Below are positions 19,543-62,426 of a DNA stretch of 64,000 nt, piece by piece. The DNA lies in the IMG/VR virus record IMGVR_UViG_3300047481_000755, positions 1 through 64,000 of that record; one strand, given 5' to 3'. A program made the position numbers and the translations under genes. The stretch is from a virus. Positions within the stretch are counted from its first letter, which is position 1, and each line of letters begins with the position of its first letter. Below the pieces are notes generated by a model. The model was not told the DNA's origin. It ran no database searches and saw only the letters and a list, made by a program, of their open reading frames with translations.

Positions 19543-21993
19543 TTATTTATCTTTCTGCTGTCTATATGTTCCGCCAAACAAGGTGCCAACTTTGGACTTA
19601 TTCTTTATCTTTGGATTTACAACTCCAGCAATACTACCTGCTGTAGTTTCATCTATTGTGGATTTTTTTGCTACATCTTTTAATTTCAAGATTGTGGCAT
19701 TATTGCGATCCGCCCAACGATTTGCTTCATCTTCGCTACGAAAAACTTTTGTTTTTACTATTTTTTGATCACGATTGTTATACACTTGAATCAACGCTTC
19801 TACCGAATTATCTGTGCTTTCCGATACGCTTTCCTTCTTGGTATTTTTCACACAATTAGGGTATTTTTTACCAAACATAGTTTTCATACCCTCTTTACGA
19901 TAGCCTTTCCAACATGCCTCGCCTACTTTGCTCTCATTGACGCCAAAATCTTTGTTAGTAACTTGCCACGGCTGTTTTAAAGGAACAGGATCTGGACTTG
20001 GCTTAACACCAGCGGTAGTTGAAATATTTTTTGCTCTAGCAAGATTAGATTTGACCATATTTAACGCATCTGGAGTAATGCTTCCACGAACGCCAGTTTG
20101 AGTAGCATCTGGAACGACATCGAAACCCTGACGTTTCATGCCACTGCTTTGTAAAACTGTATCAGTTTTTGAAACAATTTGATCTAACTGTTTTTGATCT
20201 GTACCTTCCGCCACACCTTGCTTTAGACGCTTGCCGTTGATTACTTCTACACCGTTGATTTCTAAAGGATACCAATCATTGATTGCCAATCGTTCAAACA
20301 CTTCATCCAACGAACTGGCTTTTACTTTCAACTTTACTTGCTTGGACAATGCGTTGCTCTTGTCAAAGGCTAATACTCGGTAAACTTGATCCGAGCCTTC
20401 CGCCACACCTTGCTGTTTCACACCTTGCTGTTTTTGTTGACGTTTTACTGCTTTCTGTTTAGCAAGTTTAGCAGGGCTTGTTGGTTGTTTTAATCCTTTT
20501 TTCCAGTTAGCAGGTGGAGTTTTAATCTCGCCTCCCCACTGGTCAAATTCGCCTTCCGCCACACCTTGTTCGCTAATATGCTTTAGATGCGTAGTAGTTA
20601 ATACGAAAGAATCCTTATACTTACCATCTTCGCCGGCTTTGCTAGGATCGTCTAACTTAACTTTAACTCGCCCATCTACATTGATATTTTTAGATACAGC
20701 AACAATCGTACCTGTGCCCAACGGACCATCTACACGATCTCCTACATTGTAGGTATTCTTAAAGCCTTCCGCCACACCTTTCGCCTTTAGGTGCATGTCT
20801 CTTGTTTTTACATAACGCTTGGTTTCTTTATCTCCAGATTCAATATCACCTTGATTATAATGCCCTATTGCTCGTCCTGCGTGTTTACTTGCAACCACAT
20901 CGGGATGTTCTTTGCCTTTGATAGAACGCTTGATGCCTTTTACAACATCACTAAAGCCTTTCGCCACACCTTGGCGGCCAAGTTTTTTCTTAATACTAGC
21001 GATTTCACGGGCAATAGCATTTTGTTTAGTCCAGAAACTGTAATCATCACTGTATTGATATTCTGGATCAAATTCGCTTTCTAACTCACGCAATCTTGCT
21101 TCTAATTCCTCTCTACTTGGCTCAGGCGCATACTTTGCTTGTGATTTAGTTGGACCACCAGTTTTTAATTGACCGCTCTTTTTCATATCATCAATCATCG
21201 CAGCAAACTGACTATGAAAATCACTTTCATTAACAGTTGATTCAGACGCAGCACGTATTGATTTTAGATCTTTATCTGATGGCGCACCTTTGCTGCCAGG
21301 TTTACGCATACGTTCACCACTGCCACCTTTTATACGTTCACGTTTTGCTCTGATATTAGCCCATAAGCCCGGTTTTTCACTCTCACTTACTGGCTGTTCA
21401 GTTGATGTAGTGTTATCGGCGGGTAAATTTTTAGTGTAGTAAATTACAGATTTTTTATCTGATGCTTCATCGTATTCACGCTTAATCTTCTGTGCCATTT
21501 CTGGATTTTTATCCATCATGGATCTGAAGTATGTTTTGGCGCCATTCAACCAATTGAATTTTTTAGGCATGCCATCTACGCTAACAGGATTGCCCTTAAC
21601 GATAACATACCAAGGACCACGCTCAAAATCTTGAAATTTTTCTTCTTCGTCTTCCGCTACTGGAGCGGTTGACTCAACTACACTATTTTTTTTTACTGGT
21701 TTCAATCCTTCTGCTAGTGGAAGAAAATCATCTTCACCAGCGTCAACATTCATCATTTGATATTCAAGATGTTCTCTGACCGATTTTAGATAGTCATTTG
21801 CTAGTGTTATCTTGGAAGCGACCCAACCTTCTAAGCCTTGTTCTTCAGAAATATTACGTAATAACTTGTGTAGAACAATAGCATGTTCAGCGGCATAGTA
21901 GCAATCTACTCTGGCCATTTGAACTTCGTGATCGCTATGGGCTTCATGTGCGTCCTCTAAGAAGCCTTCCTTTAGAAACTGTTTACTATTCAT
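19543..21993 (-). CDS. Modular 816-aa protein with QGVAEG linkers
   Basis: 816 residues. The start MNSKQFLKEGFLED resembles a capsid-targeting peptide with an L-K-E site. A conserved helical domain follows (DHEVQMARVDCYYAAEHAIVL ... GLEGWVASKITLANDYL). After residue 100 the protein is a string of small modules separated by (K)QGVAEG or near copies. One module is SH3/KOW-like (YNVGDRVDGPLGTGTIVAV), and another is a Cys-pair block EACWKGYRKEGMKTMFGKKY. Each linker ends in V-A-E before Gly, similar to T4 prohead-protease sites. I infer a processed head-cargo polyprotein; the enzymatic content, if any, is unknown. Confidence 0.7.
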   Translation of the reverse strand: MNSKQFLKEGFLEDAHEAHSDHEVQMARVDCYYAAEHAIVLHKLLRNISEEQGLEGWVASKITLANDYLKSVREHLEYQMMNVDAGEDDFLPLAEGLKPVKKNSVVESTAPVAEDEEEKFQDFERGPWYVIVKGNPVSVDGMPKKFNWLNGAKTYFRSMMDKNPEMAQKIKREYDEASDKKSVIYYTKNLPADNTTSTEQPVSESEKPGLWANIRAKRERIKGGSGERMRKPGSKGAPSDKDLKSIRAASESTVNESDFHSQFAAMIDDMKKSGQLKTGGPTKSQAKYAPEPSREELEARLRELESEFDPEYQYSDDYSFWTKQNAIAREIASIKKKLGRQGVAKGFSDVVKGIKRSIKGKEHPDVVASKHAGRAIGHYNQGDIESGDKETKRYVKTRDMHLKAKGVAEGFKNTYNVGDRVDGPLGTGTIVAVSKNINVDGRVKVKLDDPSKAGEDGKYKDSFVLTTTHLKHISEQGVAEGEFDQWGGEIKTPPANWKKGLKQPTSPAKLAKQKAVKRQQKQQGVKQQGVAEGSDQVYRVLAFDKSNALSKQVKLKVKASSLDEVFERLAINDWYPLEINGVEVINGKRLKQGVAEGTDQKQLDQIVSKTDTVLQSSGMKRQGFDVVPDATQTGVRGSITPDALNMVKSNLARAKNISTTAGVKPSPDPVPLKQPWQVTNKDFGVNESKVGEACWKGYRKEGMKTMFGKKYPNCVKNTKKESVSESTDNSVEALIQVYNNRDQKIVKTKVFRSEDEANRWADRNNATILKLKDVAKKSTIDETTAGSIAGVVNPKIKNKSKVGTLFGGTYRQQKDK
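20204..20220 (-). repeat. QGVAEG module copy 1
   Basis: Coding strand CAAGGTGTGGCGGAAGG, encoding Q-G-V-A-E-G in frame inside the 816-residue protein. Identical in sequence to two other copies here. Confidence 0.85.
20396..20427 (-). repeat. QGVAEG module copy 2 with preceding half copy
   Basis: A full copy (20396-20412) is preceded on the coding strand by a half copy CAGCAAGGTGTG (to 20427), giving QQGVKQQGVAEG. This looks like a partial tandem duplication. Confidence 0.85.
20552..20568 (-). repeat. QGVAEG module copy 3
   Basis: An identical 17-base CAAGGTGTGGCGGAAGG in the same reading frame, here after an SH3/KOW-like module. Confidence 0.85.
20765..20781 (-). repeat. QGVAEG module copy 4 (KGVAEG variant)
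   Basis: The first base differs (AAAGGTGTGGCGGAAGG), giving Lys for Gln. The other 16 bases are identical. Confidence 0.8.
20957..20973 (-). repeat. QGVAEG module copy 5 (QGVAKG, site lost)
   Basis: CAAGGTGTGGCGAAAGG: a single G-to-A change turns the Glu codon into Lys, which would abolish a V-A-E type cleavage site. Confidence 0.8.
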
Positions 21994-22017
21994 TTCGGTT
22001 AATCCTATGATTTTATA

Positions 22018-22025
22018 TATTTATC
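22018..22025 (-). promoter_or_regulatory. Late-type promoter box GATAAATA
   Basis: GATAAATA lies 25 bases before the 816-residue protein gene (start 21993), at the end of the upstream gene. It matches seven of eight bases of the T4 late box, with an AGGA ribosome-binding site following. Confidence 0.45.
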
Positions 22026-23124
22026 TACTATTTGTAATTGCGTCTGGATGTTTTCGGTTGTAAAGACGCATGATAACGCCTGCTTGGGCATTTGCGCCAT
22101 TTTCTTCATCACTACCTGTTACGCCGGAGTTGTGGTCTAATTCATTGTTTAAGTGTTGTTTGTAATGTACTAATTCGTGTGCTAGAGTTCTTAACACATC
22201 AACAGGATGTCTGCCATGTACACCTACCAATATCATATTCTTTTCAGGCATGAATTGACCAAAACTGCTTTGAATGCCATCGCCGCCTATCGTCATCTTG
22301 AATGAAATCTTGGGTAAATTCTTTATCTCCAACACCTTCATTGCTATCGGTAAAAATTGTCTAATAGAGCCTTTTAGAGCATCTATAGTTGATATGTCTT
22401 CATTGATTTTACCACTTATTGGACTTGCTGTATCCGTGCTCACGCCTACTATATCTTCGGTTGTTGCTGATTGAATCTTATCAAAAATTGTGCCCAGTTC
22501 TTGACGTGGATATTTGTACATCTTGGTCAAGAATTCTGTTCTCTCTTCTGGATTGTTACGAATTTTGTTCCATAAATTTCTAGCATCAGTGCCGTGACTT
22601 ACGTCATATGTTTCGTTGCCGATGGTAATTTTTTTCTGTAGTTCCGGAATCACTACGACATATCCATGTTTATCGGCAGTGACTGGTTGCTCACCATCTC
22701 GCAGTGTTTTGTAGTAACTAGGGCTACCTGCTGGTTTGGTAATATTTCCGTCTTTGTCTTTTTGATCTCTTTTGGTATATGTATCTGGGTTCAATCGATC
22801 AGCATCTGGGCCACCTACCACTGTTATGAATACAGTGTTTGCTGGGTCAAATTTTTGTGGTAGTACATACATCTTGTTGGTTTCAATAATTCTGTCACCA
22901 GGAACACCAGCAGCGGTCATTAGTTGATATTTGTCGTTGAAGTTGAATGGGCTTTTAGGACCACTGGTATCATTGCTAGTGAGAATGTACACATTTTCAC
23001 TGCCAAATCTACGTTGTAGTATTTCAAATACGCCAGCATGGCCTTGATGAAATGGCTGAAATCTTCCAGGGTAAGTAACAATTACATCTGGCTTTTGTTG
23101 TTCGTAAAGTTCGTATGCGTACAT
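22021..23124 (-). CDS. Nucleotidyltransferase-zincin fusion protein
   Basis: 367 residues. After a capsid-targeting-like start (MYAYELYEQQ) comes a HIGH-superfamily nucleotidyltransferase domain (residues 14 to about 205): VTYPGRFQPFHQGH holds the HxGH motif, and VVGGPDADRLNP follows. The last 120 residues form a second domain with LRTLAHELVHYKQ, the HExxH zinc motif of metallopeptidases. NMN adenylyltransferase-like enzymes of this type make NAD or CDP-activated compounds; the actual substrate is unknown. The pairing with a zincin is unusual. A terminator separates it from the upstream glycosyltransferase gene. Confidence 0.75.
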   Translation of the reverse strand: MYAYELYEQQKPDVIVTYPGRFQPFHQGHAGVFEILQRRFGSENVYILTSNDTSGPKSPFNFNDKYQLMTAAGVPGDRIIETNKMYVLPQKFDPANTVFITVVGGPDADRLNPDTYTKRDQKDKDGNITKPAGSPSYYKTLRDGEQPVTADKHGYVVVIPELQKKITIGNETYDVSHGTDARNLWNKIRNNPEERTEFLTKMYKYPRQELGTIFDKIQSATTEDIVGVSTDTASPISGKINEDISTIDALKGSIRQFLPIAMKVLEIKNLPKISFKMTIGGDGIQSSFGQFMPEKNMILVGVHGRHPVDVLRTLAHELVHYKQHLNNELDHNSGVTGSDEENGANAQAGVIMRLYNRKHPDAITNSR

Positions 23125-23145
23125 AGTAATTATATGTTAATACTA

Positions 23146-23153
23146 TATTTATT
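23146..23153 (-). promoter_or_regulatory. Late-type promoter box AATAAATA
   Basis: AATAAATA lies 22 bases before the gene starting at 23124. The following ATAGTA/TACTAT inverted repeat reaches the start codon, a weak version of the hairpin arrangement seen elsewhere. Confidence 0.4.
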
Positions 23154-23160
23154 ACAGAAA

Positions 23161-23187
23161 TAGAAAACGGGACACTGTGGTCCCGTT
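23161..23187 (-). terminator. Rho-independent terminator
   Basis: Minus strand: AACGGGAC, loop CACAGT, GTCCCGTT, then TTCTATTTC. A perfect 8-bp stem lies 24 bases after the glycosyltransferase stop. Confidence 0.8.
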
Positions 23188-23210
23188 ACGATGTTTTACG
23201 TGTTTAAGTA

Positions 23211-24319: not shown

Positions 24320-24324
24320 TTGTT

Positions 24325-24367: not shown

Positions 24368-25075
24368 CAGATTATAAATTTTATTAACGATTCCTGGATG
24401 AACAATATTCAGCAACATTACGATTTTTTCATCGTTAGTATAAAAATACCCACCACCAAAATATCCTTTTCCACGTCTTAATTGACGAACAAGATATTCG
24501 CTTGCGCTGTTTTCTATTTCTGACTTTGATATAACATCAGCAAGAGCATTGGCATTTTCAATATTAAACGCACGATTTAATGTTATTTTATATTTGAAAG
24601 AATTATGTTGACTGCGTATGATATTGCCATCTGTAATTAATTTATGTTGAGCATCTGAGCCTGGAATAGATACTTCTATCACTCTTTCGCCATATAAATT
24701 TGCTACCGTCTTTAGTAATTCAATATCATTACTGTAGAATATAGCATGTGGTTCTTCAACACGAAATCTTAGATCAGTGCTTTTGTCATGATTTTCAATA
24801 AAATTTGATAAATCATGTAGTTGAGTATCATCGGCATTTTCGAAATTACTACGTTGTCTATTGTAGAAGTAACTACTACCATAAAACTTATTTGCTCTCT
24901 CAATCATTTCAATGATACGATCAGAAAAACTAGTTATATTTTTACTTCGCAGTAATTTACAACCAGGAGCATAAATTTTTACACTGTTAGCATATATTCC
25001 ATAAAATGCTTTTTTTGTATTTTGAATATTAACAGTTGGATTTAATTGAGTCCAGAATGATGTATCCATTTTCAT
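24353..25075 (-). CDS. Unknown phage protein next to clpA-like gene
   Basis: 240 residues with two similar halves of alternating helix and strand. It has FWTQLNPTVNIQNTKKAFYG at the start, and GSSYFYNRQR and GGGYFYTNDEK in comparable positions of the two halves, which hints at an internal duplication. It overlaps the end of the ClpA-like gene by 47 bases. No known domain. Confidence 0.65.
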   Translation of the reverse strand: MKMDTSFWTQLNPTVNIQNTKKAFYGIYANSVKIYAPGCKLLRSKNITSFSDRIIEMIERANKFYGSSYFYNRQRSNFENADDTQLHDLSNFIENHDKSTDLRFRVEEPHAIFYSNDIELLKTVANLYGERVIEVSIPGSDAQHKLITDGNIIRSQHNSFKYKITLNRAFNIENANALADVISKSEIENSASEYLVRQLRRGKGYFGGGYFYTNDEKIVMLLNIVHPGIVNKIYNLVDPE

Positions 25076-27323
25076 CTATTAGAGTGTTAGTGTTGTATAT
25101 TGTATATGCTTTTTGCTGAAAGTCAAACTCAATTTTACCATTATAAGTAACATTGACGTTACACTTAGATAACTTTTCAAATAATATCTTTTTGCTCAGT
25201 GGCACTTTGATCAATTCAGAAATAGTTCGGGCCAATGGCCTTGCGCCCAGTTTGCTATCATAGCCAACTTCAATGATACGATCCATAGCAGTGGTATCAA
25301 GATTAACGGTAATACCTTTATCTAGCAGCAGATCATTTAATTCCTTGACGAACTTGCCAATAATTAACTTGATATGATCCTTGGATAACTTCTTGAACTT
25401 AACGATGCTATCAAGACGATTTCTGAACTCTGGCTTGAAGAAGTCTTTAACTGCCTTATCGTCTTCGTTTGATTTCTCTAATTTAGGAACAAATCCCATG
25501 GTGTTAGTTTCATTCTCTGCTGCGCCAAGATTGCTAGTTAGCATCAATACACATTGACGACAATTTGCCTTCTTGCCATTGCTGCTGGTAACTATACCTT
25601 CGTCCATCATGGTTAGTAGAATGTGAGCAACATCTGGATGTGCTTTTTCAATCTCGTCAAACAGAATTACTGAATTAGGATTCTTTTCAATATCACTGAT
25701 CAACAGACCGCCACCCAAATTGCCGTCATCATAGCCAACATATCCCGGTGGCGCACCAATCAACTTTGCGATAGCATGTTTTTCTTGATACTCGCTCATG
25801 TCGTACCGTATCAACTTCATGCCTAGATTTTCTGCTAGTAATTTAGCCAATTCTGTTTTGCCTGTACCGGTTGGACCAGTTAATAGAAAACTGCCAACAG
25901 GTTTATTCAGTGCTTTCAGTCCAGCCTTGCTAACATATATTTTTTCTAAGATAGTATCTACTGCTCCATCTTGGCCAAATAGTTTAGACTTGATATTGCC
26001 CTCAATATTCTCTACTAGTGATACGTTCTGAGCATCCAATTGTTCTATTGGAACTTTGATATATTGACTGAGAACACTGATAATATCGCTTTTCTTGATA
26101 GTTAAATTCTGACCTAGAACTTTTGCCTTAGCACAGGCAGTATCAAGTAGATCAATGGCTTTGTCTGGCAGTTTTTTATCTGTTTGATACTTGGCACTTA
26201 ATTCAACGGCAGCAATTACTGCCTCATCAGTTATTTCTACGCCATGAAAATCTTCAAAAACATCAGTTAACTCGGTGATAATTTTCTTTGCTATATCAAT
26301 GCTTGGTTCATCAACGGTCAATCTGTAAAAACGGCGCATCAATGCCCGATCTTTTTCAAAACTCTGATTGTATTCTTCCCATGTTGTACTGGCGATTACT
26401 TTGATATTGCCCTTGGTTAGTGCTGGCTTGATCATGTTTGAAAAGTCTACACTACTATTTGAACCACTGCCGGCACCACGCATCTGATGTGCTTCGTCAA
26501 TGAAAAGAATAGTATCACCCTTAAGTTCAAGTGCCTTTAATACATGTTTCAATTTTTCTTCAAACTCGCCACGATACTTACTGCCTGCCAGTAGCGATGG
26601 AATATCAAGACTATATACAGTGTAATTCTTTAGATAGTCTGGAACTTCGCCTTCAACAATTTTTACTGCCAATCCCTCGGCAATAGCAGTTTTGCCAACG
26701 CCAGGATCGCCTACCATAAGCACATTACACTTGTTTCTCTTTGCTAGAACATTGATCATTTCCTCTAGTTCTACTTCTCTGCCAATTACGGGATCCAATT
26801 TTTCTGATTTTGCCATTTCAGACAAGTTATCACAATAGTTTTCTAGCAGGGTATCCAACTGAGACTTGCCCTTTTTCTTTGGCTTTTGTTCAGCGAAAGT
26901 ATTATTCCAGTAATTGATTACTTTATCTTTCTCGATGCCATACTTCATTAAGAAGTACCGCGCATGACTTTTATCTTCAGCACATATACTCAGATAGATA
27001 TCTACAATTTGTAAATTTGATCGTCCACTAAACAGTACTTGAGTAAACGCACGATTAAATACTCGTTCTAGAGTGTGAGTCTTTTTTGGAACAATATCGT
27101 AACCGTTGCTGATTAAATAAGTTTGACTATCAATGTAATCTTCTAACTCAATCAGTAGATCATCAATTTTTACTTCTAATTTGGTAGTCAACTCACGAAA
27201 TATATCGTGTGTGAGTAAGCCGTAAAGCAGATGCTCTAGCGTTACATATTCGTGATTTTTCTTGATGGCTAGTTTAGTAGCCTCTTCAATAATCTTATCA
27301 ATTTCTGGTTGTGTTTGTAGCAT
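25029..27323 (-). CDS. clpA: ClpA-like AAA+ unfoldase
   Basis: 764 residues, close to bacterial ClpA (758). An N-terminal Clp_N repeat domain is followed by AAA-1 with Walker A GDPGVGKTA and Walker B LFIDEAHQM. AAA-2 has Walker A GPTGTGKTE and LFDEIEKAH, and a D2-small C-terminal domain ends the protein. The ClpP-docking loop of ClpA is not evident, so it may act alone or on phage proteins. ClpA feeds unfolded substrates to ClpP; a phage copy could redirect host proteolysis. It lies just downstream of the DnaJ-like gene. Confidence 0.9.
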   Translation of the reverse strand: MLQTQPEIDKIIEEATKLAIKKNHEYVTLEHLLYGLLTHDIFRELTTKLEVKIDDLLIELEDYIDSQTYLISNGYDIVPKKTHTLERVFNRAFTQVLFSGRSNLQIVDIYLSICAEDKSHARYFLMKYGIEKDKVINYWNNTFAEQKPKKKGKSQLDTLLENYCDNLSEMAKSEKLDPVIGREVELEEMINVLAKRNKCNVLMVGDPGVGKTAIAEGLAVKIVEGEVPDYLKNYTVYSLDIPSLLAGSKYRGEFEEKLKHVLKALELKGDTILFIDEAHQMRGAGSGSNSSVDFSNMIKPALTKGNIKVIASTTWEEYNQSFEKDRALMRRFYRLTVDEPSIDIAKKIITELTDVFEDFHGVEITDEAVIAAVELSAKYQTDKKLPDKAIDLLDTACAKAKVLGQNLTIKKSDIISVLSQYIKVPIEQLDAQNVSLVENIEGNIKSKLFGQDGAVDTILEKIYVSKAGLKALNKPVGSFLLTGPTGTGKTELAKLLAENLGMKLIRYDMSEYQEKHAIAKLIGAPPGYVGYDDGNLGGGLLISDIEKNPNSVILFDEIEKAHPDVAHILLTMMDEGIVTSSNGKKANCRQCVLMLTSNLGAAENETNTMGFVPKLEKSNEDDKAVKDFFKPEFRNRLDSIVKFKKLSKDHIKLIIGKFVKELNDLLLDKGITVNLDTTAMDRIIEVGYDSKLGARPLARTISELIKVPLSKKILFEKLSKCNVNVTYNGKIEFDFQQKAYTIYNTNTLIDENGYIILDSIKSNC

Positions 27324-27331
27324 GTAGATAT

Positions 27332-28147
27332 TTAGGTAGATGTTTTGATTTGTCGCACTAAATCTAGTTGTGAGACAGATAAGGTAGTTGGTATTATAAT
27401 GTTAACTTTCACATAAAAATTTCCTCTGATATCCTTTTGAAATTCATATAAACCCTCGCCTGGTATTTTAAATTTTGTACCTTGTTGAGTGTTTGGTGGT
27501 ATTTTTATGATGAAAGTTTTTTCGGATAGTGTTTGTACTTCTAGTTCACAGCCTAGTATAGCATCAAAGCAGTTCAGCGAAATTTCCGTTTCTAGATCCA
27601 AGCCTTTTTGTATAAATTTGTTAGACTCGTGAACGATGATGCTGATGTACAAGTCGCCTGGGTGAGCGTTTGGGAAAATTCTCTCACCTCCACCACCAAA
27701 CTTCATTACAGTGCCAGATTTTATACCTCTGGGTATCTTTATCTCTAGCGTTTTGCTATCGTTGTTCTTAGTGCGTATCGTTACAAATTTTGTAGTTTCG
27801 GACAACGTATCTGCTAGATTAATTTCTATTGAAGTTTTTATGTCTGGATTTCTACGTTGTCCCCTCATAAAATGCGAAAATATATCACCGTCACCAAATG
27901 AAAATCCAAATGAGTTGAATACATCATCAATGTTTGGATTACCGCCAAAATTACCACTTCTCATGGCGTCGTATTCTGCTCGCTTACGATCATCCATGAG
28001 TGTATCATATGCTTGCTGTATTTCTTGAAACTTAGCAGTATCACCACCACGATCTGGGTGATGTTTGCCCGCTAACTTTCTATACGAACTTTTGATTTCG
28101 TCCTTGGAAGCACCAGGAGATACATTTAAAATTTTATAATAATCCAT
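27332..28147 (-). CDS. DnaJ-like co-chaperone (CbpA type)
   Basis: 271 residues from MDYYKILNVSPGASKDEIK at 28147. A J domain with the essential HPD (GKHHPDRGG) is followed by a Gly/Phe-rich linker and two C-terminal beta domains. The Cys-rich zinc domain of true DnaJ is missing, as in CbpA. It would stimulate host DnaK ATPase and deliver phage substrates. It is followed by clpA, so the pair may form a protein-quality or remodelling unit. A terminator lies upstream of the start. Confidence 0.88.
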   Translation of the reverse strand: MDYYKILNVSPGASKDEIKSSYRKLAGKHHPDRGGDTAKFQEIQQAYDTLMDDRKRAEYDAMRSGNFGGNPNIDDVFNSFGFSFGDGDIFSHFMRGQRRNPDIKTSIEINLADTLSETTKFVTIRTKNNDSKTLEIKIPRGIKSGTVMKFGGGGERIFPNAHPGDLYISIIVHESNKFIQKGLDLETEISLNCFDAILGCELEVQTLSEKTFIIKIPPNTQQGTKFKIPGEGLYEFQKDIRGNFYVKVNIIIPTTLSVSQLDLVRQIKTST

Positions 28148-28168
28148 ACTCACTATTCTACAACAAAA

Positions 28169-28191
28169 ATGGGCAGAAATCAACTGCCCAT
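28169..28191 (-). terminator. Rho-independent terminator
   Basis: Minus strand: ATGGGCAG, loop TTGATTT, CTGCCCAT, then TTTTGTTG. It ends the lysis/secreted-protein operon between 28215 and the dnaJ-like start. Confidence 0.8.
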
Positions 28192-29155: not shown

Positions 29156-29655
29156 TTTTTACCTCTGGTCAATTCGTTTATAGTTAAGTTTATTCTGGCC
29201 GCTTCATTGTGTAGTTTGATGATATCAACTGGTATAGGACATACTTCCATAAACTTAACTACTTCTTCTTTTTTGACTACTTCACGATCTACATAACGTA
29301 TAATTTCATCAGCCTTTTCTCGTACAATCTTATTCTTGTATACGACTTTTTCTTGAATTACAACCTTAACTTCTTCCGCCTTTGCTTCGGCTATCTTTAG
29401 TTTTTTTTCTACTTCTTCAACTTTATCGCGCCATATTTTTTCTGTGCTATAACCACCTTTTACATAGATACCAGCACAAAGAATAATAATACTGACGATT
29501 TGAATTATCTTGTAGTATCCAGCAATCGCAGGAATCAATCTGACCATAGGCGATATGAATACAAAACTCAACACCGTTAAGGTAATACCAATGAACAGTA
29601 TTGAGTTTACAATGTATTCAAGCATCGTTGTAGGTAACAGATGTAACAACCACAT
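29152..29655 (-). CDS. Inner-membrane spanin-like protein (Rz type)
   Basis: 167 residues. Two N-terminal hydrophobic segments (residues 11-30 and about 45-63) are followed by a long Lys/Glu/Val coiled coil (residues 70-140) and a short C-terminal tail. The architecture of an N-terminal anchor plus periplasmic coiled coil fits an i-spanin. It starts at a TAATG overlap with the endolysin stop, with a GGAG ribosome-binding site, and is followed by the lipoprotein gene. Confidence 0.65.
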   Translation of the reverse strand: MWLLHLLPTTMLEYIVNSILFIGITLTVLSFVFISPMVRLIPAIAGYYKIIQIVSIIILCAGIYVKGGYSTEKIWRDKVEEVEKKLKIAEAKAEEVKVVIQEKVVYKNKIVREKADEIIRYVDREVVKKEEVVKFMEVCPIPVDIIKLHNEAARINLTINELTRGKK

Positions 29656-30299
29656 TAATGAACTCCTAGAACATGTAGGGCGTGATTGTAGTGTTTAATT
29701 CTATCTTCTAGTCCTATCGTACCGCCGTTAATTCTCTTACTTAAGGTAATTATATCCTTCTTATCGGCGAACTGATTTAACTTATTCTCATCCCAGAACC
29801 AGGCAGCACTCTGAACACAGCCTTCAAATGTTTTTAGATGTTCAACTGCCTCTTCAACATCAATTTCCAAACTCATTGCGTAGTTCGTGTAGTTGTTCTT
29901 GCCAGTTAATTGAATTAATCCACGCCCACAGTAGCGGTATCCATCGCCACTTTCTTCTGGACCATTGCCCATGCGATTAGCATAAATTCTGTTAGCAATT
30001 GCTTCTTGACGATTAGGCATTGCCGCATAGCGTTGTGCTATCTCGTCATTCGGGAAATATTTGGGAAATACTTTTCGTAGTGATTGCCAACGATAGTTTA
30101 AGTTTTCTTTGATGAATCTAAAGTTACCAGATTCGTGAGCACATTGTGCTAAGAAAGCAGCAACCCGAAGTGGAGTTTCTATTTCGTATTCGGGAAGTAT
30201 CGCTATCAGAGCATTGTACCAATCATCTATATATTGATTTTTTGGTACGATTTCTTTAAGTTGGTCAAGTGTGAAGTCAAAACTGAATTGAGTAGCCAT
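29655..30299 (-). CDS. Endolysin, GH19 chitinase-like
   Basis: 214 residues of the glycoside hydrolase family 19 fold used by many phage endolysins to cut peptidoglycan glycan strands. AFLAQCAHESGNFRFIKENLNYRW holds the catalytic Glu, and GRGLIQLTGKNNYTNYA is the family signature. There is no signal peptide, so release needs the holin. The ribosome-binding site and start codon lie in a hairpin loop next to a late promoter (30289-30331), as for T4 lysozyme. Spanin and holin genes follow. Confidence 0.88.
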   Translation of the reverse strand: MATQFSFDFTLDQLKEIVPKNQYIDDWYNALIAILPEYEIETPLRVAAFLAQCAHESGNFRFIKENLNYRWQSLRKVFPKYFPNDEIAQRYAAMPNRQEAIANRIYANRMGNGPEESGDGYRYCGRGLIQLTGKNNYTNYAMSLEIDVEEAVEHLKTFEGCVQSAAWFWDENKLNQFADKKDIITLSKRINGGTIGLEDRIKHYNHALHVLGVH

Positions 30300-54766: not shown

Positions 54767-56152
54767 TTAGGTGTAACTATTGTATAAAAAACTTCTTATA
54801 TCGTGAAGAACTTCTTCACTATAATTCTCACGCTTGGCTACTTTTAAGGCATATTCTACTATGTCACGGTCTAATCGTTCTACGCCGATTTCATCATAGA
54901 ATTTTGACCAAATCAACGGATAGAAGTCTATCAATGATTTTAATAGATCGGTTTGTTCATGTAAGTAATTTAAGCCATATGAATTTCGTAGTAACCACCA
55001 TATATCATTTGCTATTTCTCGTCTATCACGATCTTTCATACTCTCAACATTATCTGCTGCAACTTTTTTAAGTAATAATTTAAATTCGTCTAAAGGAACT
55101 AATTTATCAAGTGAGTTTAAATTTCCCACAATTGATGGACGAATTAAGAAAGCAGTTTTAAATTCTTCAGGTGTCGCTACTTTACGAATATTACCGAATA
55201 GTGATGCATCAGTTTTTATTAAGTCTAGCCTCATTGCCCTATCTAAACGTTTAAAATATTTTCCCGCTGAAAGTCCTTTCGCATGTAGGAAAGTAATCAG
55301 TCCTTGTATATTGTTATCATTTAGTAATTTTCTCATCAACTGCATATTTGTTGTGAAGATCTCATCACGCTCTTTACCGTGTTCTTGACGAGATTTCATC
55401 TTGGTGGGACTATATTTGTTGGCAACAGTATCAAGCAATTCTACTGCCCTGCCTGAAAAGAATACCGCTTGTGTAGGTTCACTGGGATGTATAATTTCTC
55501 TATCTGGATCAACAAATCCATCTATACCCAATCGTCTAAATATTTCGTTCCATGCTACTGTAGTTTTATTGGTATTCATTACCTCACTTAGTCTCATGGT
55601 AACATACCAAAATTTACCTCCCGGGGTGTTTACTCTCGCACTTTTGTTCGCAGCATCCATTAATGTATCAATGTATTTTGTTGCTGTATCACTATCAAGT
55701 GGCTGAGGTCTGTACTCTATTGGCAACTTGGTTAATAACGCTTTTAATTTATCACAGTACTCATTGTATTGTGCTTCAGTGAATTTCCCAATATCAATGA
55801 TGTTTGCACCACTTCTAGCACGAAATATATTAGCCCAGGGTTTACCGCCTGCAAATGGTAATGCTGTCATGGCCATGGTACTTGTTGGTTCTGAATATAT
55901 ATTTCCAAATGGTGTAGTTTTGTATATCACATATTCAGCGGGATAAGCATATATGCCAATTGGGGTATTGTATCTACTACCCGGATTAATACCTAATTTT
56001 GGTAGATCAGTAAAACTTACAAATAAATTCTTAAATCCAGTGTTTGGTAATGGTTGGGCACTGGCTAATGCCTGTGTAATATACTGATTGACTGATACCT
56101 TTGGGTTCTGTTCAGGATTACGCCTGGCTTCAACAATTTCGTGATATCTCAT
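54767..56152 (-). CDS. Unknown cargo-type protein, paralogue of 60467-61834
   Basis: 461 residues. It begins MRYHEIVEARRNPEQNPKVS, a capsid-targeting-like start with an I-V-E site and the phrase ARRNPxQNP shared with the paralogue. Conserved landmarks are GINPGSRYNTPIGIYAYPAEYVIYK, TPGGKFWYVTMRLSEV and IIHPSEPTQAVFF. The C-terminal half is helical repeats. The YNTPxGxYxYPxEY and EPTQAV motifs suggest an enzyme active site, but I cannot identify the family. Confidence 0.65.
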   Translation of the reverse strand: MRYHEIVEARRNPEQNPKVSVNQYITQALASAQPLPNTGFKNLFVSFTDLPKLGINPGSRYNTPIGIYAYPAEYVIYKTTPFGNIYSEPTSTMAMTALPFAGGKPWANIFRARSGANIIDIGKFTEAQYNEYCDKLKALLTKLPIEYRPQPLDSDTATKYIDTLMDAANKSARVNTPGGKFWYVTMRLSEVMNTNKTTVAWNEIFRRLGIDGFVDPDREIIHPSEPTQAVFFSGRAVELLDTVANKYSPTKMKSRQEHGKERDEIFTTNMQLMRKLLNDNNIQGLITFLHAKGLSAGKYFKRLDRAMRLDLIKTDASLFGNIRKVATPEEFKTAFLIRPSIVGNLNSLDKLVPLDEFKLLLKKVAADNVESMKDRDRREIANDIWWLLRNSYGLNYLHEQTDLLKSLIDFYPLIWSKFYDEIGVERLDRDIVEYALKVAKRENYSEEVLHDIRSFLYNSYT

Positions 56153-57042
56153 TATCTATCTTTCCACTTAGTTGCTAGCCAATTGACTAAATCAAAAACA
56201 GTGTTTAATTTTTTCTGTCGCATAAATGCTATAATTTTTGTAGCATTTTCTCTATCTACCCCGCTACTTGGCTTTCGTGCGTTGCTGAAATCGTTTTCTA
56301 ATTCTTGTGACTTGGCTTTAAGATAGAAAGGATTATCCCAATGATAGCGTAAACCATATTTAATGTTATTTGCTTCTTTGCTTAGTTGATTTTCTTTTTG
56401 GGCGCCGATTAACTCTAACCAGGATTCTAAAACACTTCTACGAATATAACTAGGTATATATGGTTTACGCTTTTCACTATCAATTGTTTTTAATACCCCG
56501 ATATCACCTGTTTGTGTTGTATCTAATCTACGCCAGGCGCCTTCGTCAGTATAAAAATATGCAGGTATATCACGGCGTTTTGCGCCTACTAATAATTTTC
56601 TAACTAATGAAATATGTTTTGGTTCTGGTTTTTCATTTTTCAATAATACATGTACACTGGTTACTCCACCTATTGGTATAGTGGGAGTTTTACTGAATAA
56701 TCTATCTTCGGCTTCATGGGCACGACCATAAGCATTTTTAGGATCACGATTCAACCAGTAATCAACTGGCTTAGCGGAATATCGTTGATTGTACCAATTA
56801 CCATCCATCACAAACATGACCGCACTTCGTGGGCCAATTTTTTGGTGATAACCACCAGTTTTAGTTCTGGCAGTACTTAGAAAGTATGGATAACCAGGCG
56901 GTGCATATTGTTCTTCAACACTGCCTAGTGTACTGCTTAATTCAAATACACCATCAGTGACAATTTTTTCACCAGCAAATATATTGGTATAGTGATAAAC
57001 TATGGGACTTAGGCCCTCTGTAAGTATTTCATTAATTCGCAT
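56152..57042 (-). CDS. Unknown cargo-type protein, ART-like opening
   Basis: 296 residues. It begins MRINEILTEGLS, with an L-T-E site. IVYHYTNIFAGEKIVTDGVFEL then resembles the opening strand-helix of ADP-ribosyltransferase/DarT-like folds, followed by SAVMFVMDGNWYNQRYSAKPVDYW and AHEAEDRLFS. The C-terminal 80 residues form a separate helical module with ATKIIAFMRQKKLNTVFDLVNWL. The ART relation is a weak suggestion only. No ribosome-binding site is visible. Confidence 0.6.
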   Translation of the reverse strand: MRINEILTEGLSPIVYHYTNIFAGEKIVTDGVFELSSTLGSVEEQYAPPGYPYFLSTARTKTGGYHQKIGPRSAVMFVMDGNWYNQRYSAKPVDYWLNRDPKNAYGRAHEAEDRLFSKTPTIPIGGVTSVHVLLKNEKPEPKHISLVRKLLVGAKRRDIPAYFYTDEGAWRRLDTTQTGDIGVLKTIDSEKRKPYIPSYIRRSVLESWLELIGAQKENQLSKEANNIKYGLRYHWDNPFYLKAKSQELENDFSNARKPSSGVDRENATKIIAFMRQKKLNTVFDLVNWLATKWKDR

Positions 57043-57979: not shown

Positions 57980-57992
57980 GAAACTTTAGAGA

Positions 57993-58190: not shown

Positions 58191-58216
58191 GATAATTACC
58201 CTTTTTGGTTGAAAAA

Positions 58217-58441: not shown

Positions 58442-58477
58442 GATAACTCCTTGTGGTGGTGAAAAACGTTGATGAAA

Positions 58478-58499
58478 CCAGCAACTTATTTATTGCTGG
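58478..58499 (-). terminator. Hairpin between early-island genes
   Basis: CCAGCAA and TTGCTGG (58478-58484 with 58493-58499) form a 7-bp stem with an eight-base loop, then TTTCATC on the minus strand. It follows the stop of the 58509-59123 gene by ten bases; the T run is short, so termination may be weak. Confidence 0.45.
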
Positions 58500-58508
58500 C
58501 TTCGTGGT

Positions 58509-59123: not shown

Positions 59124-59153
59124 TTCGTTTACCTCGTTTCGTTCAGTGAATAC

Positions 59154-59182
59154 AGTATAGCAGGTATGCCAATTACTGTCAA
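59154..59182 (-). promoter_or_regulatory. Strong sigma-70-like promoter
   Basis: TTGACA (59182-59177), 17 bases, TATACT (59159-59154), 31 bases before 59123. The bases around the -10, TATACTGTATTCACTGA, are repeated at the next promoter. Confidence 0.75.
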
Positions 59183-59183
59183 A

Positions 59184-59402
59184 TTAGACCGCAGCCTTGA
59201 AGGACACACGACTCACGGCCGACGGCATGATAAAGCTGTACCCATCGCTGGTGTACCGGTAGTGGCTGCCAGCAGCAATCACTTCAGGCGCATCCAGTGC
59301 TCCAAGTGCGAACGAATACATCTCGTAACCTTCACAATACTCGTCAAGATACTCTTGGCGGATCTTGCCGTAGGTGGAGGTCATATAGGGTGCAGTGATC
59401 AT
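59184..59402 (-). CDS. Small early-island protein, unknown
   Basis: 72 residues from the ATG at 59402, with GGAG seven bases upstream. EYLDEYCEGYEMYSFALGALDAPEV and SHYRYTSDGYSFIMPSAVSRVSF. Aromatic-rich, no recognised domain. Confidence 0.6.
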   Translation of the reverse strand: MITAPYMTSTYGKIRQEYLDEYCEGYEMYSFALGALDAPEVIAAGSHYRYTSDGYSFIMPSAVSRVSFKAAV

Positions 59403-59433
59403 GATCAACTCCGTTGTCTAACTCAGTGAATAC

Positions 59434-59462
59434 AGTATAAGAGGTTTTGTATTATTTGTCAA
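59434..59462 (-). promoter_or_regulatory. Strong sigma-70-like promoter
   Basis: TTGACA (59462-59457), 17 bases, TATACT (59439-59434), 32 bases before 59402. It is followed by the same TATACTGTATTCACTGA as at 59154, so the two promoters are probably copies. Confidence 0.75.
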
Positions 59463-59878
59463 ATCGGGAAGTTTTGATTGGCCATACGTTTGGCTATGGA
59501 TTTCTGAACTTTAAAGTTTACAGGTTGACCCATACCAGCCTCATCGTGCGTTAGCATGGCATACACTCGCAGGACGCTAGGATTTGCGCCTGATAGCGTA
59601 TAAAACACACTGATATTGTGAGTTAGATGGGCGTGTTTAATGCCTGGAATTTCCAGCGACATCGGTGTGTTGGGCGTATTTCTTTTGTCCGAGGCTCCAA
59701 AAGGTTCAGTTGGATTCTCTTTTTTTGATTTTAAGAATTCAACATACTTTTCTAATACCTTAGGATTAGATCTGACATATCTACCAGCCGTTTCCTGGAA
59801 TAGTGGACACTCCGAAACTACCATTCTCGGAGTATTGCCAGGAACTTGTGATTTTACTTCGCCGCGCCCTTTTGCCAT
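59459..59878 (-). CDS. RelE-like protein (possible toxin)
   Basis: 139 residues. YVEFLKSKKENPTEPFGASDKR, IPGIKHAHLTHNISVFYTLSGANPSVLRVYAMLTHDEAG and a final SIAKRMANQNF follow the order of RelE/ParE-type ribonuclease folds. The overlap of 25 bases with a small upstream gene and a shared promoter resemble a toxin-antitoxin operon, but catalytic residues are not certain and the protein is longer than RelE. Confidence 0.55.
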   Translation of the reverse strand: MAKGRGEVKSQVPGNTPRMVVSECPLFQETAGRYVRSNPKVLEKYVEFLKSKKENPTEPFGASDKRNTPNTPMSLEIPGIKHAHLTHNISVFYTLSGANPSVLRVYAMLTHDEAGMGQPVNFKVQKSIAKRMANQNFPI

Positions 59879-60063
59879 GCGAGGGCACCTTCACGAAGAT
59901 TTTTGATGTAGGAATCAACATCAACAGGTTCAGACCAAACATCAGCACGATGGGCTTCGACCACACGAACCAGATCCGAGGTAGCAACACCAGTATCATT
60001 GCCGCTGTCCAGCGATTCGTACAGGTGTTGGCCGCGCAGTTGGGTGATTTCGGTAATCTTCAT
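59854..60063 (-). CDS. Small partner protein, possible antitoxin
   Basis: 69 residues. MKITEITQLRGQHLYESLDSG starts like the shared N terminus of the cargo-type proteins (with an L-Y-E site). VVEAHRADVWSEPVDVDSYIKNL and a short basic tail follow. As the first gene ahead of the RelE-like gene it could be its antitoxin, or a cargo protein; the data do not decide. Confidence 0.5.
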   Translation of the reverse strand: MKITEITQLRGQHLYESLDSGNDTGVATSDLVRVVEAHRADVWSEPVDVDSYIKNLREGALAWQKGAAK

Positions 60064-60093
60064 GATGTTACATCTCTGACTTGGTATGAATCC

Positions 60094-60122
60094 ATTATAG
60101 TGTATTTAGCATTTATCGTCAA
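60094..60122 (-). promoter_or_regulatory. Sigma-70-like promoter
   Basis: TTGACG (60122-60117), 17 bases, perfect TATAAT (60099-60094), 31 b before the gene at 60063. Confidence 0.7.
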
Positions 60123-60309
60123 ATTTTTTCTTGATGGTATCCAGCACTGCCGTAGCGTCAGTGTACTCGGACATTTTATCCAACTTGCCCTCAACCGTGG
60201 TGAAGATTCCCTCATAGTTTGGCACTGTGACGCTAGGCGTAATGCCCAAACTCAGAGTATAGGGCAGGTTGTATACAAGGGTTGTATTCCAGAAAAATTT
60301 CTTGTCCAT
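60106..60309 (-). CDS. Small protein, unknown
   Basis: 67 residues: MDKKFFWNTTLVYNLPYTLS... and DKMSEYTDATAVLDTIKKKF. No domain recognised. AGAAAGGA precedes the ATG, and the promoter 60334-60362 lies just upstream. Confidence 0.58.
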   Translation of the reverse strand: MDKKFFWNTTLVYNLPYTLSLGITPSVTVPNYEGIFTTVEGKLDKMSEYTDATAVLDTIKKKFDDKC

Positions 60310-60333
60310 GATTGTCCTTTCTAGGAGAAAGGT

Positions 60334-60362
60334 ATAATACTACAACTTTGTTTTTTTGTCAA
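60334..60362 (-). promoter_or_regulatory. Sigma-70-like promoter
   Basis: TTGACA (60362-60357), 17 bases, TATTAT (60339-60334), 25 bases before the start at 60309. It overlaps the end of the 60340-60459 reading frame. Confidence 0.6.
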
Positions 60363-60459
60363 AAAATTTGATGGGATGAATGGCAAAGTAAATTATTGCT
60401 CCGATAATAGACCCTAATCCTACGCCCACAATAATACTATTTACAAGTGTTATATCCAT
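60340..60459 (-). CDS. Very small membrane protein, 39 aa
   Basis: An ATG at 60459 opens MDITLVNSIIVGVGLGSIIG and onward, one Gly-rich hydrophobic helix and a basic tail with PIKFFDKKTK. No ribosome-binding site is visible, and the frame overlaps an early promoter, so it could be chance. Confidence 0.4.
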   Translation of the reverse strand: MDITLVNSIIVGVGLGSIIGAIIYFAIHPIKFFDKKTKL

Positions 60460-60466
60460 GGCAAGT

Positions 60467-61834
60467 TTATTGTTTTCCATCAATTTCTGCTGCTGCCTTG
60501 ATATGTCTACGTCTCCATGTTGCAGGATCAGGATCTTTTAAAACATCTCGGGCATAGAGTACATCAATACTATTTCCATCTATTTGTGTATTATTTTGTT
60601 TACTGAATAGTGCTATACTGTCTTCGGCGTCAGATGATAATTTCACTCCGAATGTCAATATATAGTTCATAATAATCTTATATGAGATAGCAGAGCCAAA
60701 ATTCCAATTACTAACTATTTCATCTATGTTTGGTTCTATTTCTGGCCAACGCTGTTTTAGTATTTTAAGAGCATAGTAACATGCGATAGAAATACTTTTA
60801 GTTAGATATGGTTCTAATTCAGGCCAACGCTCACCTCTTTTGCTTAACGCATCAATTAAATCTCTGAAATCAGCACTATATTTCACAACTGATATTCTTG
60901 GTAATTCGTTTAACAACATATTACGACCGTATTTCCATCCAGGTTCAATATCTGTCAAATATCGTAATATGTTATATATATCCTTATGCTCAATTACATA
61001 CTTTCTAAGATCATGTATACTGATTTGTTTATTTTTATATCTGTCTATAACTGTTTGAAATGTATAGTATCTTAACTCTCGTCTAATCGCACTGATAGGT
61101 GTACTGTTTTCAAAACTTTTAAGTAGTCTAATTCCCGAAGTATTAAGTACAACACCTTGAGTGGGTTCATCTGGATATATGATACCATCGCCGAAATCAA
61201 GAACTGTGTTATAACCTAATACAGTGCGTAATATCCAATTCCAAATATTAGCGGCCCTAGATCCAATTACATCTCTTAGCCATTGACTAAGTTTCCAAGT
61301 CACAAACCATATATTTCCACCTGGTGATGCTACACGACCTTCTGTTAATTTTGACTGATCAAGATATTCTATAAATGCGGTAAAATCTTTAGTATCAGCA
61401 CTAAACATACTACCACCTACTTTTCTTTTAAATTTATCTAATAGGCCAGGTATATTATCTAATGCTGTTTTTAGTTTTTCTAAATCGCGCTGATAATTTG
61501 CGTTTGTATAATCGTCTAAGAACAGTATTGGTTCTGGAAATTGAAATATTTGAATATATGGTGCATCATCTACAAAAGGTAATTTTCTAGGAGCATAGTG
61601 ATCTTTTTTCTCTAGATAATATTCACCAGGATAGAAATATACACCATTAGGAGTATTGTATGTGCTACGAGGATTTACCCCAATCTTATTGATCATGGTC
61701 ATTGAGATACCAATTTGATTGATATCTACGCCACTGTTAACCAGAAAATTGACTGCGCCTTTATGTCCAGATACTTCGCGTGGATTTTGTACTGGATTGC
61801 GACGGGCTTCTGTGGTAAATTCGTTTGCTCGCAT
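60467..61834 (-). CDS. Unknown cargo-type protein, paralogue of 54767-56152
   Basis: 455 residues. MRANEFTTEARRNPVQNPREVS begins with the capsid-targeting-like start (F-T-E) and the shared ARRNPxQNP phrase. GVNPRSTYNTPNGVYFYPGEYYLEK, SPGGNIWFVTWKLSQW and IIYPDEPTQGVVL align with the same landmarks in the 54767 protein. The C-terminal half is helical and diverged. The paralogues are separated by the early-gene island. Confidence 0.65.
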   Translation of the reverse strand: MRANEFTTEARRNPVQNPREVSGHKGAVNFLVNSGVDINQIGISMTMINKIGVNPRSTYNTPNGVYFYPGEYYLEKKDHYAPRKLPFVDDAPYIQIFQFPEPILFLDDYTNANYQRDLEKLKTALDNIPGLLDKFKRKVGGSMFSADTKDFTAFIEYLDQSKLTEGRVASPGGNIWFVTWKLSQWLRDVIGSRAANIWNWILRTVLGYNTVLDFGDGIIYPDEPTQGVVLNTSGIRLLKSFENSTPISAIRRELRYYTFQTVIDRYKNKQISIHDLRKYVIEHKDIYNILRYLTDIEPGWKYGRNMLLNELPRISVVKYSADFRDLIDALSKRGERWPELEPYLTKSISIACYYALKILKQRWPEIEPNIDEIVSNWNFGSAISYKIIMNYILTFGVKLSSDAEDSIALFSKQNNTQIDGNSIDVLYARDVLKDPDPATWRRRHIKAAAEIDGKQ

Positions 61835-61847
61835 AGTTTAGTATTTA

Positions 61848-62426
61848 TTACTCACCTCCACCGCCATCACCTGAACCTTCACCAGTGCCGTAGTATCCAC
61901 CGTAATATGCCGGACCATAGAAATAACGATTGGTTTTCTTCTTTGTAGATTTACGCGACTTTTTGCGTTCATCCAATTCTATTTGTTCGTTATTCTTTTT
62001 ACGACCTTGGCAATGTGCTCGTTGGCTGAATCCTTTAGGATTCTTACAGTTTATACTCTTTTTATACTTTTCACTCCAGGCTTCCGCCACACCTTGTTGA
62101 GATTCGCTCAAGTCATCCTTCTTATAAGTAATACTCCAATTATCGTCACCGTAAATTACGACACCTTCGTAGTCATCGCTGTAATCAATATAAAGTTTAC
62201 GCTTTACTCCGTCTGGGCAAGTAACACCTTTTTCTAGTCTACGTTCAACTTTTTCTTGAGACTGAATATCGCTATCTAAATCTCCGCTAGACACATCACC
62301 ATTTAGCCACTGTGCGGCTAAGGTTTTTAGTATATCGTCTCCACCACCTCCGCTGTCGGTAGCAAATTCGTTCAATGTATCTTCCGCCACACCTTGCTGT
62401 TTGTTTACGAATTCTGACGCTCGCAT
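61848..62426 (-). CDS. QGVAEG-linked small cargo protein
   Basis: 192 residues. MRASEFVNKQQGVAEDTLNE carries the shared start joined directly to a QGVAE module. A small acidic/Cys domain (CPDGVKRKLYIDYSDDYEGVVIYG) is followed by a second SQQGVAEAWSE. A conserved phage block SINCKNPKGFSQRAHCQGRKK and a Gly/Tyr-rich tail end the protein. Both QGVAE copies have the same DNA sequence as those 42 kb away. Confidence 0.7.
   Translation of the reverse strand: MRASEFVNKQQGVAEDTLNEFATDSGGGGDDILKTLAAQWLNGDVSSGDLDSDIQSQEKVERRLEKGVTCPDGVKRKLYIDYSDDYEGVVIYGDDNWSITYKKDDLSESQQGVAEAWSEKYKKSINCKNPKGFSQRAHCQGRKKNNEQIELDERKKSRKSTKKKTNRYFYGPAYYGGYYGTGEGSGDGGGGE
62080..62096 (-). repeat. QGVAEG module copy 6 (QGVAEA)
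   Basis: Coding strand CAAGGTGTGGCGGAAGC, one base different from the consensus. In frame, encoding QGVAEA. Confidence 0.85.
62380..62396 (-). repeat. QGVAEG module copy 7 (QGVAED)
   Basis: Coding strand CAAGGTGTGGCGGAAGA, encoding QGVAED, placed right after the N-terminal MRASEFVNKQ. Confidence 0.85.

Follow-up and report, generated by a model that had tools for sequence, protein, structure and literature searches.

An in-frame 20-bp DNA repeat resembling a prohead-protease site at the module borders of putative phage cargo polyproteins

The T4 prohead protease gp21 prefers L/I-x-E, and the sequences of the T4 internal proteins (IPs) and of gp23 agree with this preference. In T4, IPI-IPIII and Alt are targeted by an N-terminal capsid-targeting sequence (CTS), cleaved by gp21 and ejected, with one cargo per CTS in the IPs. 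According to the accessible parts of three papers (PMC7411985, PMC7697877, PMC10229621), a CTS of about 10-20 residues targets proteins to the prohead and is removed by gp21; likewise, in the available part of another (PMC3012670), the processed form of IPI has 76 residues, so 19 of 95 should be lost. By direct comparison, IPII and IPIII start with MKTYQEFIAEA and IPI with MKTFKEFTSTTTPVSTITEA. Here we describe a 64,000-nucleotide stretch of a viral genome (positions 1 to 64,000 of IMG/VR record IMGVR_UViG_3300047481_000755; hereafter, the window), in which a short in-frame DNA repeat encoding QGVAEG (the element) recurs within two proteins that we regard as putative cargo polyproteins.

Short in-frame DNA repeats inside coding sequence are known, for example the Rickettsia palindromic elements. 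Unlike those, the element is not palindromic and lies at module borders with changing neighbours. Integron-type cassettes have an inverted-repeat site with a linked integrase; the dyad symmetry found in the element is slight. The present chains, with their several putative sites for a cut after Glu, resemble phiKZ and SPN3US head proteins, which the prohead protease cleaves at several A/S-x-E sites per chain and which are thought to be ejected; in the available portion of the SPN3US study (PMC10052503), N-terminal propeptides are taken off at 13 of the 14 sites mapped, whereas here the sites separate putative cargo domains. Several unrelated effector-type domains per chain, which we also found here, characterize polyvalent proteins (Iyer et al. 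2017, PMC5512222, accessible sections), and the domains overlap (ART-PolyVal, PF18760, beside the window; GNAT, ParB_N and GH19). The same sections of that account speculate on recombined cassettes and propose built-in processing peptidases, and a repeated cut-site linker or DNA-level joint was not seen in them. Shared with T4 IPI-IPIII and Alt are an N-terminus of the MKxxxEFIxE type, a cut-like Glu, an S77 protease in the genome and variable cargo behind a targeting peptide. In contrast to the T4 IPs, many cargos are chained here, with repeated internal sites and one conserved DNA word, and packaging, cleavage and ejection are predicted from sequence. Our open-access literature searches returned no paper with 'QGVAEG', none joining prohead protease, internal proteins, polyprotein and phage, and, among the papers listed and mostly at the level of titles and abstracts, none describing cargo chained by a repeated prohead-protease site that doubles as a DNA exchange joint; a search on short repeats in T4 likewise brought nothing of use among the papers listed.

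We propose, with a probability of about 0.72, that these polyproteins are loaded into the head, cleaved by the protease and ejected, and that their modules are shuffled at the 20-bp joint. A short N-terminal capsid-targeting peptide would bring the chain into the prohead core, a T4-type (S77) prohead protease would cut after Glu at V-A-E/G between modules (a slash marks the putative cut throughout), and the small domains freed in this way would be retained in the head until they pass into the next host together with the DNA. The coding sequence of this site, the 20-bp word nAGCAAGGTGTGGCGGAAGGC, is found almost unchanged at a great many places and would be both cut site and homology joint: its identity would allow the phage to link modules in any combination by recombination, which would add, remove or swap whole modules in frame, each new junction being a working cut site. 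The sequence shows the in-frame DNA repeat, the exchange at it, the constraint at P1 and P3, CTS-like N-termini in register with the element and a protease gene in the same virus; from these we infer packaging, cleavage, retention and ejection, and a route of exchange by homologous recombination. The system appears to belong to a clade of large T4-like phages, apparently large uncultured bacterial viruses.

Copies of the element and their reading frame

The pattern CAAGGTGTGGCGGAAGG matched the window seven times at up to three mismatches (three exact copies and four with one mismatch), always on the minus strand, against a mean of 0.03 matches in 100 rounds of shuffling the window. Five copies lie in an 816-residue open reading frame (ORF; 19543-21993) and two in a 192-residue ORF (61848-62426). 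The first-pass annotation had reported seven copies and a half copy, all in one frame, one with Glu changed to Lys, and this was confirmed: all seven are read as QGVAE or KGVAE, with one QGVAK.

19543..21993, minus strand: P0001, putative cargo polyprotein of 816 residues, with the T4-CTS-like start MNSKQFLKE/G and modules bounded by the element
20957..20973, minus strand: element copy 1, QGVAKG, P1 Glu replaced by Lys
20765..20781, minus strand: element copy 2, KGVAEG, one mismatch
20552..20568, minus strand: element copy 3, exact
20404..20433, minus strand: half copy, a 15-bp direct duplication (QQGVK QQGVA) that reads QQGVKQQGVAEG and overlaps copy 4
20396..20412, minus strand: element copy 4, exact
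20204..20220, minus strand: element copy 5, exact
61848..62426, minus strand: P0002, putative cargo polyprotein of 192 residues, whose N-terminal peptide MRASEFVNKQQGVAE ends in the element
62380..62396, minus strand: element copy 6, QGVAED
62080..62096, minus strand: element copy 7, QGVAEA, with the WSEKYKKSINC cargo behind it

The record extends to 68171, and a third open frame past the window end (67274-65064, 737 residues) contains four more degenerate copies, EGVAK, QGVAE, QSVAE and KDVAE. In the whole record, 11 of 11 copies (16-mer, up to three mismatches) are in frame. The module behind the QGVAK copy has a relative in another locus (L047), 59% identical, which has other neighbours and an intact QGVAEG at the same place; this one relative suggests that the change from Glu to Lys is a loss in the window's virus. 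Sites with Lys at P1 (GVAK) might serve to leave the adjoining modules joined.

Scanning IMG/VR for the exact 16-mer turned up the element in at least 120 contigs, and those listed were chosen for the exact 16-mer and are not a random sample. In the 120 contigs listed, all 174 exact 16-mers encode QGVAE in whichever of the three sense frames is longest, and 36 of the 120 stretches contain two or more copies. When antisense frames were also considered, the QGVAE frame was found for 178 of 180 exact 15-mers; among imperfect copies, it was found for 81 of 81 that had one mismatch, 61 of 62 that had two and 78 of 86 that had three. A repeat lying mostly out of frame, which the first-pass annotation had named as an outcome that would contradict its proposal, did not appear. 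A sequence logo delimited a 20-bp element, nAG CAA GGT GTG GCG GAA GGC, with its outer four bases at 61-83% and a nearly flat composition outside. The 20 contigs longer than 100 kb, which come from the 16-mer set and are element-bearing by construction, contain 102 copies with up to two mismatches, as compared to one match of a reversed control pattern; copies are all on one strand in 19 of these 20 (two of the 19 have a single copy).

Two other explanations of the repeat were considered. A search of 84,980 prokaryote genomes with the 20-mer gave three exact matches (Ramlibacter, Mesorhizobium and a Rhizobiales contig; L130-L132), and QGVAEG is the longest of three sense frames in all three. 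The frame alone would be compatible with a host-derived repeat; by judgement, we took these matches to be probably near chance for GC-rich genomes. An internal translation start was suggested by GGAAGG, which resembles a ribosome site, but ATG follows within 15 nt of the element in 111 of 347 cases (32%), against a background of 28%.

Silent positions and module exchange

In the polyprotein genes, GTG makes up 17% of Val codons and GCG 6.5% of Ala codons, and codon usage predicts exact 15-mers at 0.29% of QGVAE sites. The exact 15-mer was found at 183 of 211 QGVAE sites in contigs chosen by the 16-mer. It was found at 58 of 76, or about 260 times the codon-usage expectation, in contigs fetched by way of one module (44 contigs, some near-identical, not chosen by the 16-mer; at least four are also in the 120-contig set). 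The phages that bear it are not all close kin: in 11 large element-bearing contigs, gp23 protein identity ranges from 70 to 97% (median 78%), and a median of 55% of gp23 fourfold sites are identical (43-68%). For one module, 274 copy pairs of less than 85% nucleotide identity had a fourfold identity of 47% within the module versus 78% at the adjoining site in those 168 pairs that encode QGVAE there in both copies (with identical 15-mers in 41%); this comparison covers 27 of the module's 44 contigs, and the pairs are not independent. Thus, the word has been kept, or re-spread, better than the adjoining sequence.

Judged by these codon and fourfold-site counts, the element is a DNA repeat, beyond a protein motif. 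The alternative that protein-level selection alone is at work, with VAE/G sites arising independently and DNA identity reflecting codon bias, agrees with the in-frame position of all exact copies and with the constraint on the cut-site residues. It does not account for the gap between expected and found 15-mers, for the use of the minor codons GTG and GCG, or for shared modules that stop at the element at the DNA level (below); as a complete account it is hardly tenable any more, and we regard it as extremely unlikely.

All-against-all blastn of 129 polyprotein genes yielded 511 matches between loci. Of 433 left ends, 164 fell in an element of at least one partner, as did 121 of 415 on the right, compared to 8.5% for random positions; both partners had the element there at 87 left and 63 right ends. 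With the window's twin excluded, 84 of 87 both-partner left ends were at -4 to +1 of the element and 60 of 62 both-partner right ends at +14 to +20. At right ends, the 45 nt on the inner side were 74% identical and the 45 nt on the outer side 28%, the level of random pairs; this drop is expected once a match stops, and the informative part is the location of the ends. In twenty matches (13 module families), each of the two partners had the element at either end of the match; the best of these were 97.8% identical over 181 nt and 97.0% over 167 nt.

One 65-residue module is present in 44 contigs. Its left neighbours fall into 24 groups, among the 37 contigs whose flank was long enough, and its right neighbours into 25, among all 44. 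The exact 15-mer forms the site on its right in 26 of 44 cases and the one on its left in 8 of 39; the other flanking sites are variants such as KGVAE, ESVAE, QDVAE and KGVKE. The median spacing between sites is 77 residues (221 intervals). As far as match ends and neighbours can tell, the element is an exchange joint between modules. Both the proposal of a DNA repeat with conserved synonymous positions (GTG and GCG) and that of modules exchanged at the repeat were supported by these comparisons, the second in that homology ends at the element far above chance and one module has many different neighbours.

Exchange of this kind might also be carried out by dedicated site-specific recombination, in which the 20-bp word would be the recognition site of an enzyme that shifts modules as integrases shift cassettes. 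The fairly sharp borders of about 20 bp and the strong conservation of silent positions are consistent with such an enzyme, but the dyad symmetry of the element is slight (best self-complementarity at 6 of 19 positions), and 228 in-frame copies carry one to four changes. We consider a dedicated enzyme quite unlikely. The same lack of symmetry ruled out a palindromic mobile element.

Likeness to a prohead-protease site and to capsid-targeting peptides

The first-pass annotation had also read V-A-E/G as a prohead-protease-like site. Among the 228 in-frame copies with one to four mismatches, Glu stands at P1 in 206, V/M/L/I at P3 in 219 and Ala at P2 in 164. These copies were picked for their resemblance to the word, and the background at that threshold is 18 out-of-frame and 8 antisense copies; a hydrophobic P3 with Glu at P1 is also what prohead-protease substrates have. 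A T4-type S77 prohead protease (PF03420) and the gp23 major capsid protein were found in the same 11 of the 20 contigs longer than 100 kb. One of these 11, IMGVR_UViG_3300042197_000731 (G016), is the window's virus over the approximately 30 kb compared, differing by a single mismatch and an indel of about 82 nt, and has its S77 protease gene at 5517-5963; the approximately 82 extra bases of G016 are at window position 18802, inside an ORF (18066-19589) adjoining P0001. In 11 of 11 gp23 sequences, L-x-E followed by Asn or Ser precedes the mature part directly, an equivalence judged by eye in a gapped alignment; T4 gp23 has LTE/A at residue 65, where it is cut. By these signs, the element resembles a prohead-protease site, at which cleavage would be predicted.

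Starts such as MRAQEFITEG, MKAYEFITEK and MRATEFIIEG occur in the polyproteins and their neighbours. A strict CTS pattern, drawn up like the looser one after examples had been seen, fitted 13 of 82 polyproteins with a 5' end (mean 0.22 and maximum 3 in 500 shuffles), and part of the set has an N-terminal peptide ending in a putative cut-site Glu, as in CTS-bearing internal proteins. We set 358 N-termini that fit the loose CTS pattern against 501 internal sites. Of these N-termini, 101 matched the surroundings of a site from a different locus, and in 34 of these 101 best matches the CTS Glu was in exact register with the site Glu (the next largest bins held 9 and 7). Grouped by cargo family, register zero was the best match in 10 of 35 and was seen at least once in 14 of 35. 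As an example, MKAYEFITE/KWSQKYKSSINC corresponds to QGVAE/EWSKKYKSSINC; P0002 has this cargo behind copy 7, and the WSEKYKKSINC cargo directly follows a CTS-like peptide in L092, L107, L180 and L199. These alignments indicate that one cargo can be preceded by a T4-like capsid-targeting peptide in some proteins and by the element in others, with the glutamates in register. The residue constraint, the T4-type protease in the same virus and this positional equivalence together bear out the likeness to a protease site.

Alternatively, the polyproteins might not be cargo and might serve as prohead core or scaffold destroyed in maturation, like T4 gp22, gp67 and gp68; the T4 protease does fragment core proteins as well (PMC5694885, accessible part). 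This is very unlikely, as the G016 polyproteins are approximately 70 and 112 kb away from the head genes, the CTS-like neighbours include GNAT and GH19 domains with an ADP-ribosyltransferase (ART) adjoining, and the cargo is very variable and partly common to virion proteins of cyanophage S-CREM2 detected by mass spectrometry (MS).

Data from relatives bear on the proposed head loading. Chains of the same cargo are found near the terminase genes of cyanophages Bellamy (gp123) and S-SCSM2R (SSCSM2R_117), with junctions such as VVAE/KKDACY and ELDE/KCWKGY and without the DNA word. The published virion proteome of S-CREM2 comprises 52 proteins (PMC10665884, available part, as for the S-CREM2 counts below). 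A strict CTS-like N-terminus was present in 5 of these 52 versus 0 of 167 other proteins (one-sided P = 0.0006), with a pattern that was written after inspection and in which Q allowed at position 2 admits one of the five. The five are the SAM hydrolase gp6, gp13, the kinase gp14, gp136 and the cytidylyltransferase gp154. Looser patterns gave 7 of 52 versus 4 of 167 and 14 of 52 versus 24 of 167. Comparison of 44 S-CREM2 proteins with element-bearing polyproteins gave six matches, gp111, gp137, gp156, gp160 and gp208 from the virion and gp169 from the others, and virion-detected gp137 has a module 76% identical to one of L060. In PA5oct, six ORFs fit a somewhat looser CTS pattern; the one clear case, a 73-residue MS-detected structural protein between portal and protease, adds little.

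A number of observations weigh against the reading that we propose. No cleavage products were seen. The window's own 68-kb record contains no protease gene, which comes from the overlapping record G016. Lys is found at P1 in 8 of the 228 degenerate copies and in two of the record's 11 (GVAK at window 20957-20973 and at record (G000) 66908-66923), so that some junctions would stay uncut. The strict CTS pattern leaves out 69 of 82 polyproteins, several families of which start otherwise; the looser one fits 25 of 82 but also 74 of 608 other ORFs of at least 150 residues in the same loci, and 67 of 101 best matches are out of register. Of the S-CREM2 proteins compared, matches were given by 5 of the 28 from the virion and by 1 of the 16 others, with no clear enrichment, and in the part of PMC10665884 available gp137 was detected by four peptides and gp13 by one, and its authors caution that some detected proteins may be contaminants. 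By direct count, seven cultured phages lack the 16-mer at zero or one mismatch, and hence the phages behind the virion data have the cargo but not the element. These isolates, in which the best-listed gp23 relatives are Vibrio phage 2.275.O (69.6%), Sinorhizobium phage Phosso (68.5%) and PA5oct (67.4%), had 13 matches with three mismatches and one with two (in PA5oct), versus seven for the reversed control. The direct count is firmer than our blastn search of INPHARED with the N-padded 20-mer, which gave no match at uncontrolled sensitivity. No virion proteome of an element-bearing phage was found in the literature, though no search was aimed at that alone.

These points leave room for an exchange joint without cleavage, that is, a recombination hot spot and flexible linker in intact multidomain (polyvalent) proteins, in which VAE is incidental. 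In favour of this reading, Glu has been lost in the QGVAK of P0001 and the EGVAK of the 737-residue frame, as in the eight degenerate copies with Lys. However, Glu at P1 is retained more often than Ala at P2, the same cargo starts directly after a CTS-like Glu in other proteins, and both a prohead protease and L-x-E sites of the major capsid protein are present. We judge intact chains unlikely, and continue to favour cargo that is loaded into the head and cut there.

Cargo modules and neighbouring genes

The modules of P0001 and the CTS-like proteins near P0002 and elsewhere in the window are as follows.

20767..20958, minus strand: module FSDVVKG..., 64 residues including the next site, with a related module in L047
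20554..20766, minus strand: module GFKNTYNVGDRVDGPLGTGTIV..., no tblastn match at E 1e-4 in the loci searched
20206..20397, minus strand: module GSDQVYRVLAFDKSNALSK..., no tblastn match at E 1e-4 in the loci searched
19546..20205, minus strand: C-terminal part of P0001, CWKGYRKEGMKTMFGKKYPNCVKN cargo common to cyanophages and several loci
56152..57042, minus strand: CTS-like protein MRINEILTE/G..., 296 residues; its start resembles L030 and L101 proteins by eye; no PHROG match
60467..61834, minus strand: CTS-like protein MRANEFTTE/A..., 455 residues, no family match
62430..63023, minus strand: CTS-like protein MISKEFIVE/D..., 197 residues
63013..64000, on to 64299, minus strand: CTS-like protein MRSYEIMDE/D..., GNAT and GH19 chitinase/endolysin

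The N-terminal part of P0001 is related to L186-L189 and L024. Besides GNAT, the 737-residue frame has four more modules, of which the last looks protease-like, a likeness judged by eye. In a Pfam scan of 66 polyproteins with both ends, DUF6321 was found in 10 and ParB_N in two; GH19, GNAT, deaminase and nucleotidyltransferase were found in one each, GP88 and others in one to three each, and most modules had no Pfam match. An AlphaFold model of the 65-residue module (28 of 44 sequences aligned; mean pLDDT 76.8) predicted four strands and a helix at residues 13-70, with low confidence at residues 1-8 and 71-73. In this model, the left site looks disordered and the first residues of the right site look to be at the helix end; no PDB fold matched it at E <= 0.001.

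Just past the window, an ADP-ribosyltransferase ORF (record (G000) 64315-65100, minus strand, in L129) matched ART-PolyVal PF18760 (E 1.7e-21) and has MLSNEFMKNKH near its start. A 1051-residue protein (window 14546-17701, minus strand) has a transglycosylase/endolysin-like stretch and phrog_727, which also matches 17 of the 66 element-bearing polyproteins; this protein is perhaps a further cargo chain. Two endolysin-like proteins match phrog_181, at 29655-30299 and 63013-64299 (minus strand), the second with GH19, GNAT and a CTS-like start. The DNA polymerase (phrog_262; window 9146-13535, minus strand) is split into ORFs 11148-13535 and 9146-10177, between which ORF 10153-11115 matches phrog_22677 with a weak endonuclease match. 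Side-by-side genes at window 25029-28183 (minus strand) encode a ClpB-like AAA+ protein and a DnaJ protein.

We see even odds for the broader interpretation that a diverse phage clade has conserved the 20-bp word down to its silent positions for the sake of a double function, as a cut for the head protease and as a joint for trading cargo. The same interpretation, on that one joint estimate, would have the clade share an open stock of plug-in effectors that recombination reassembles and the capsid protease sets free. If the proposal is true, a module placed between two joints is at once bound for the head, released by the protease and exchangeable, which would explain how the proteins that large phages inject at the start of infection are renewed. 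The 16-mer together with a CTS would then provide a sequence handle for finding injected anti-host and anti-defence proteins in metagenomes, mostly without a known family.

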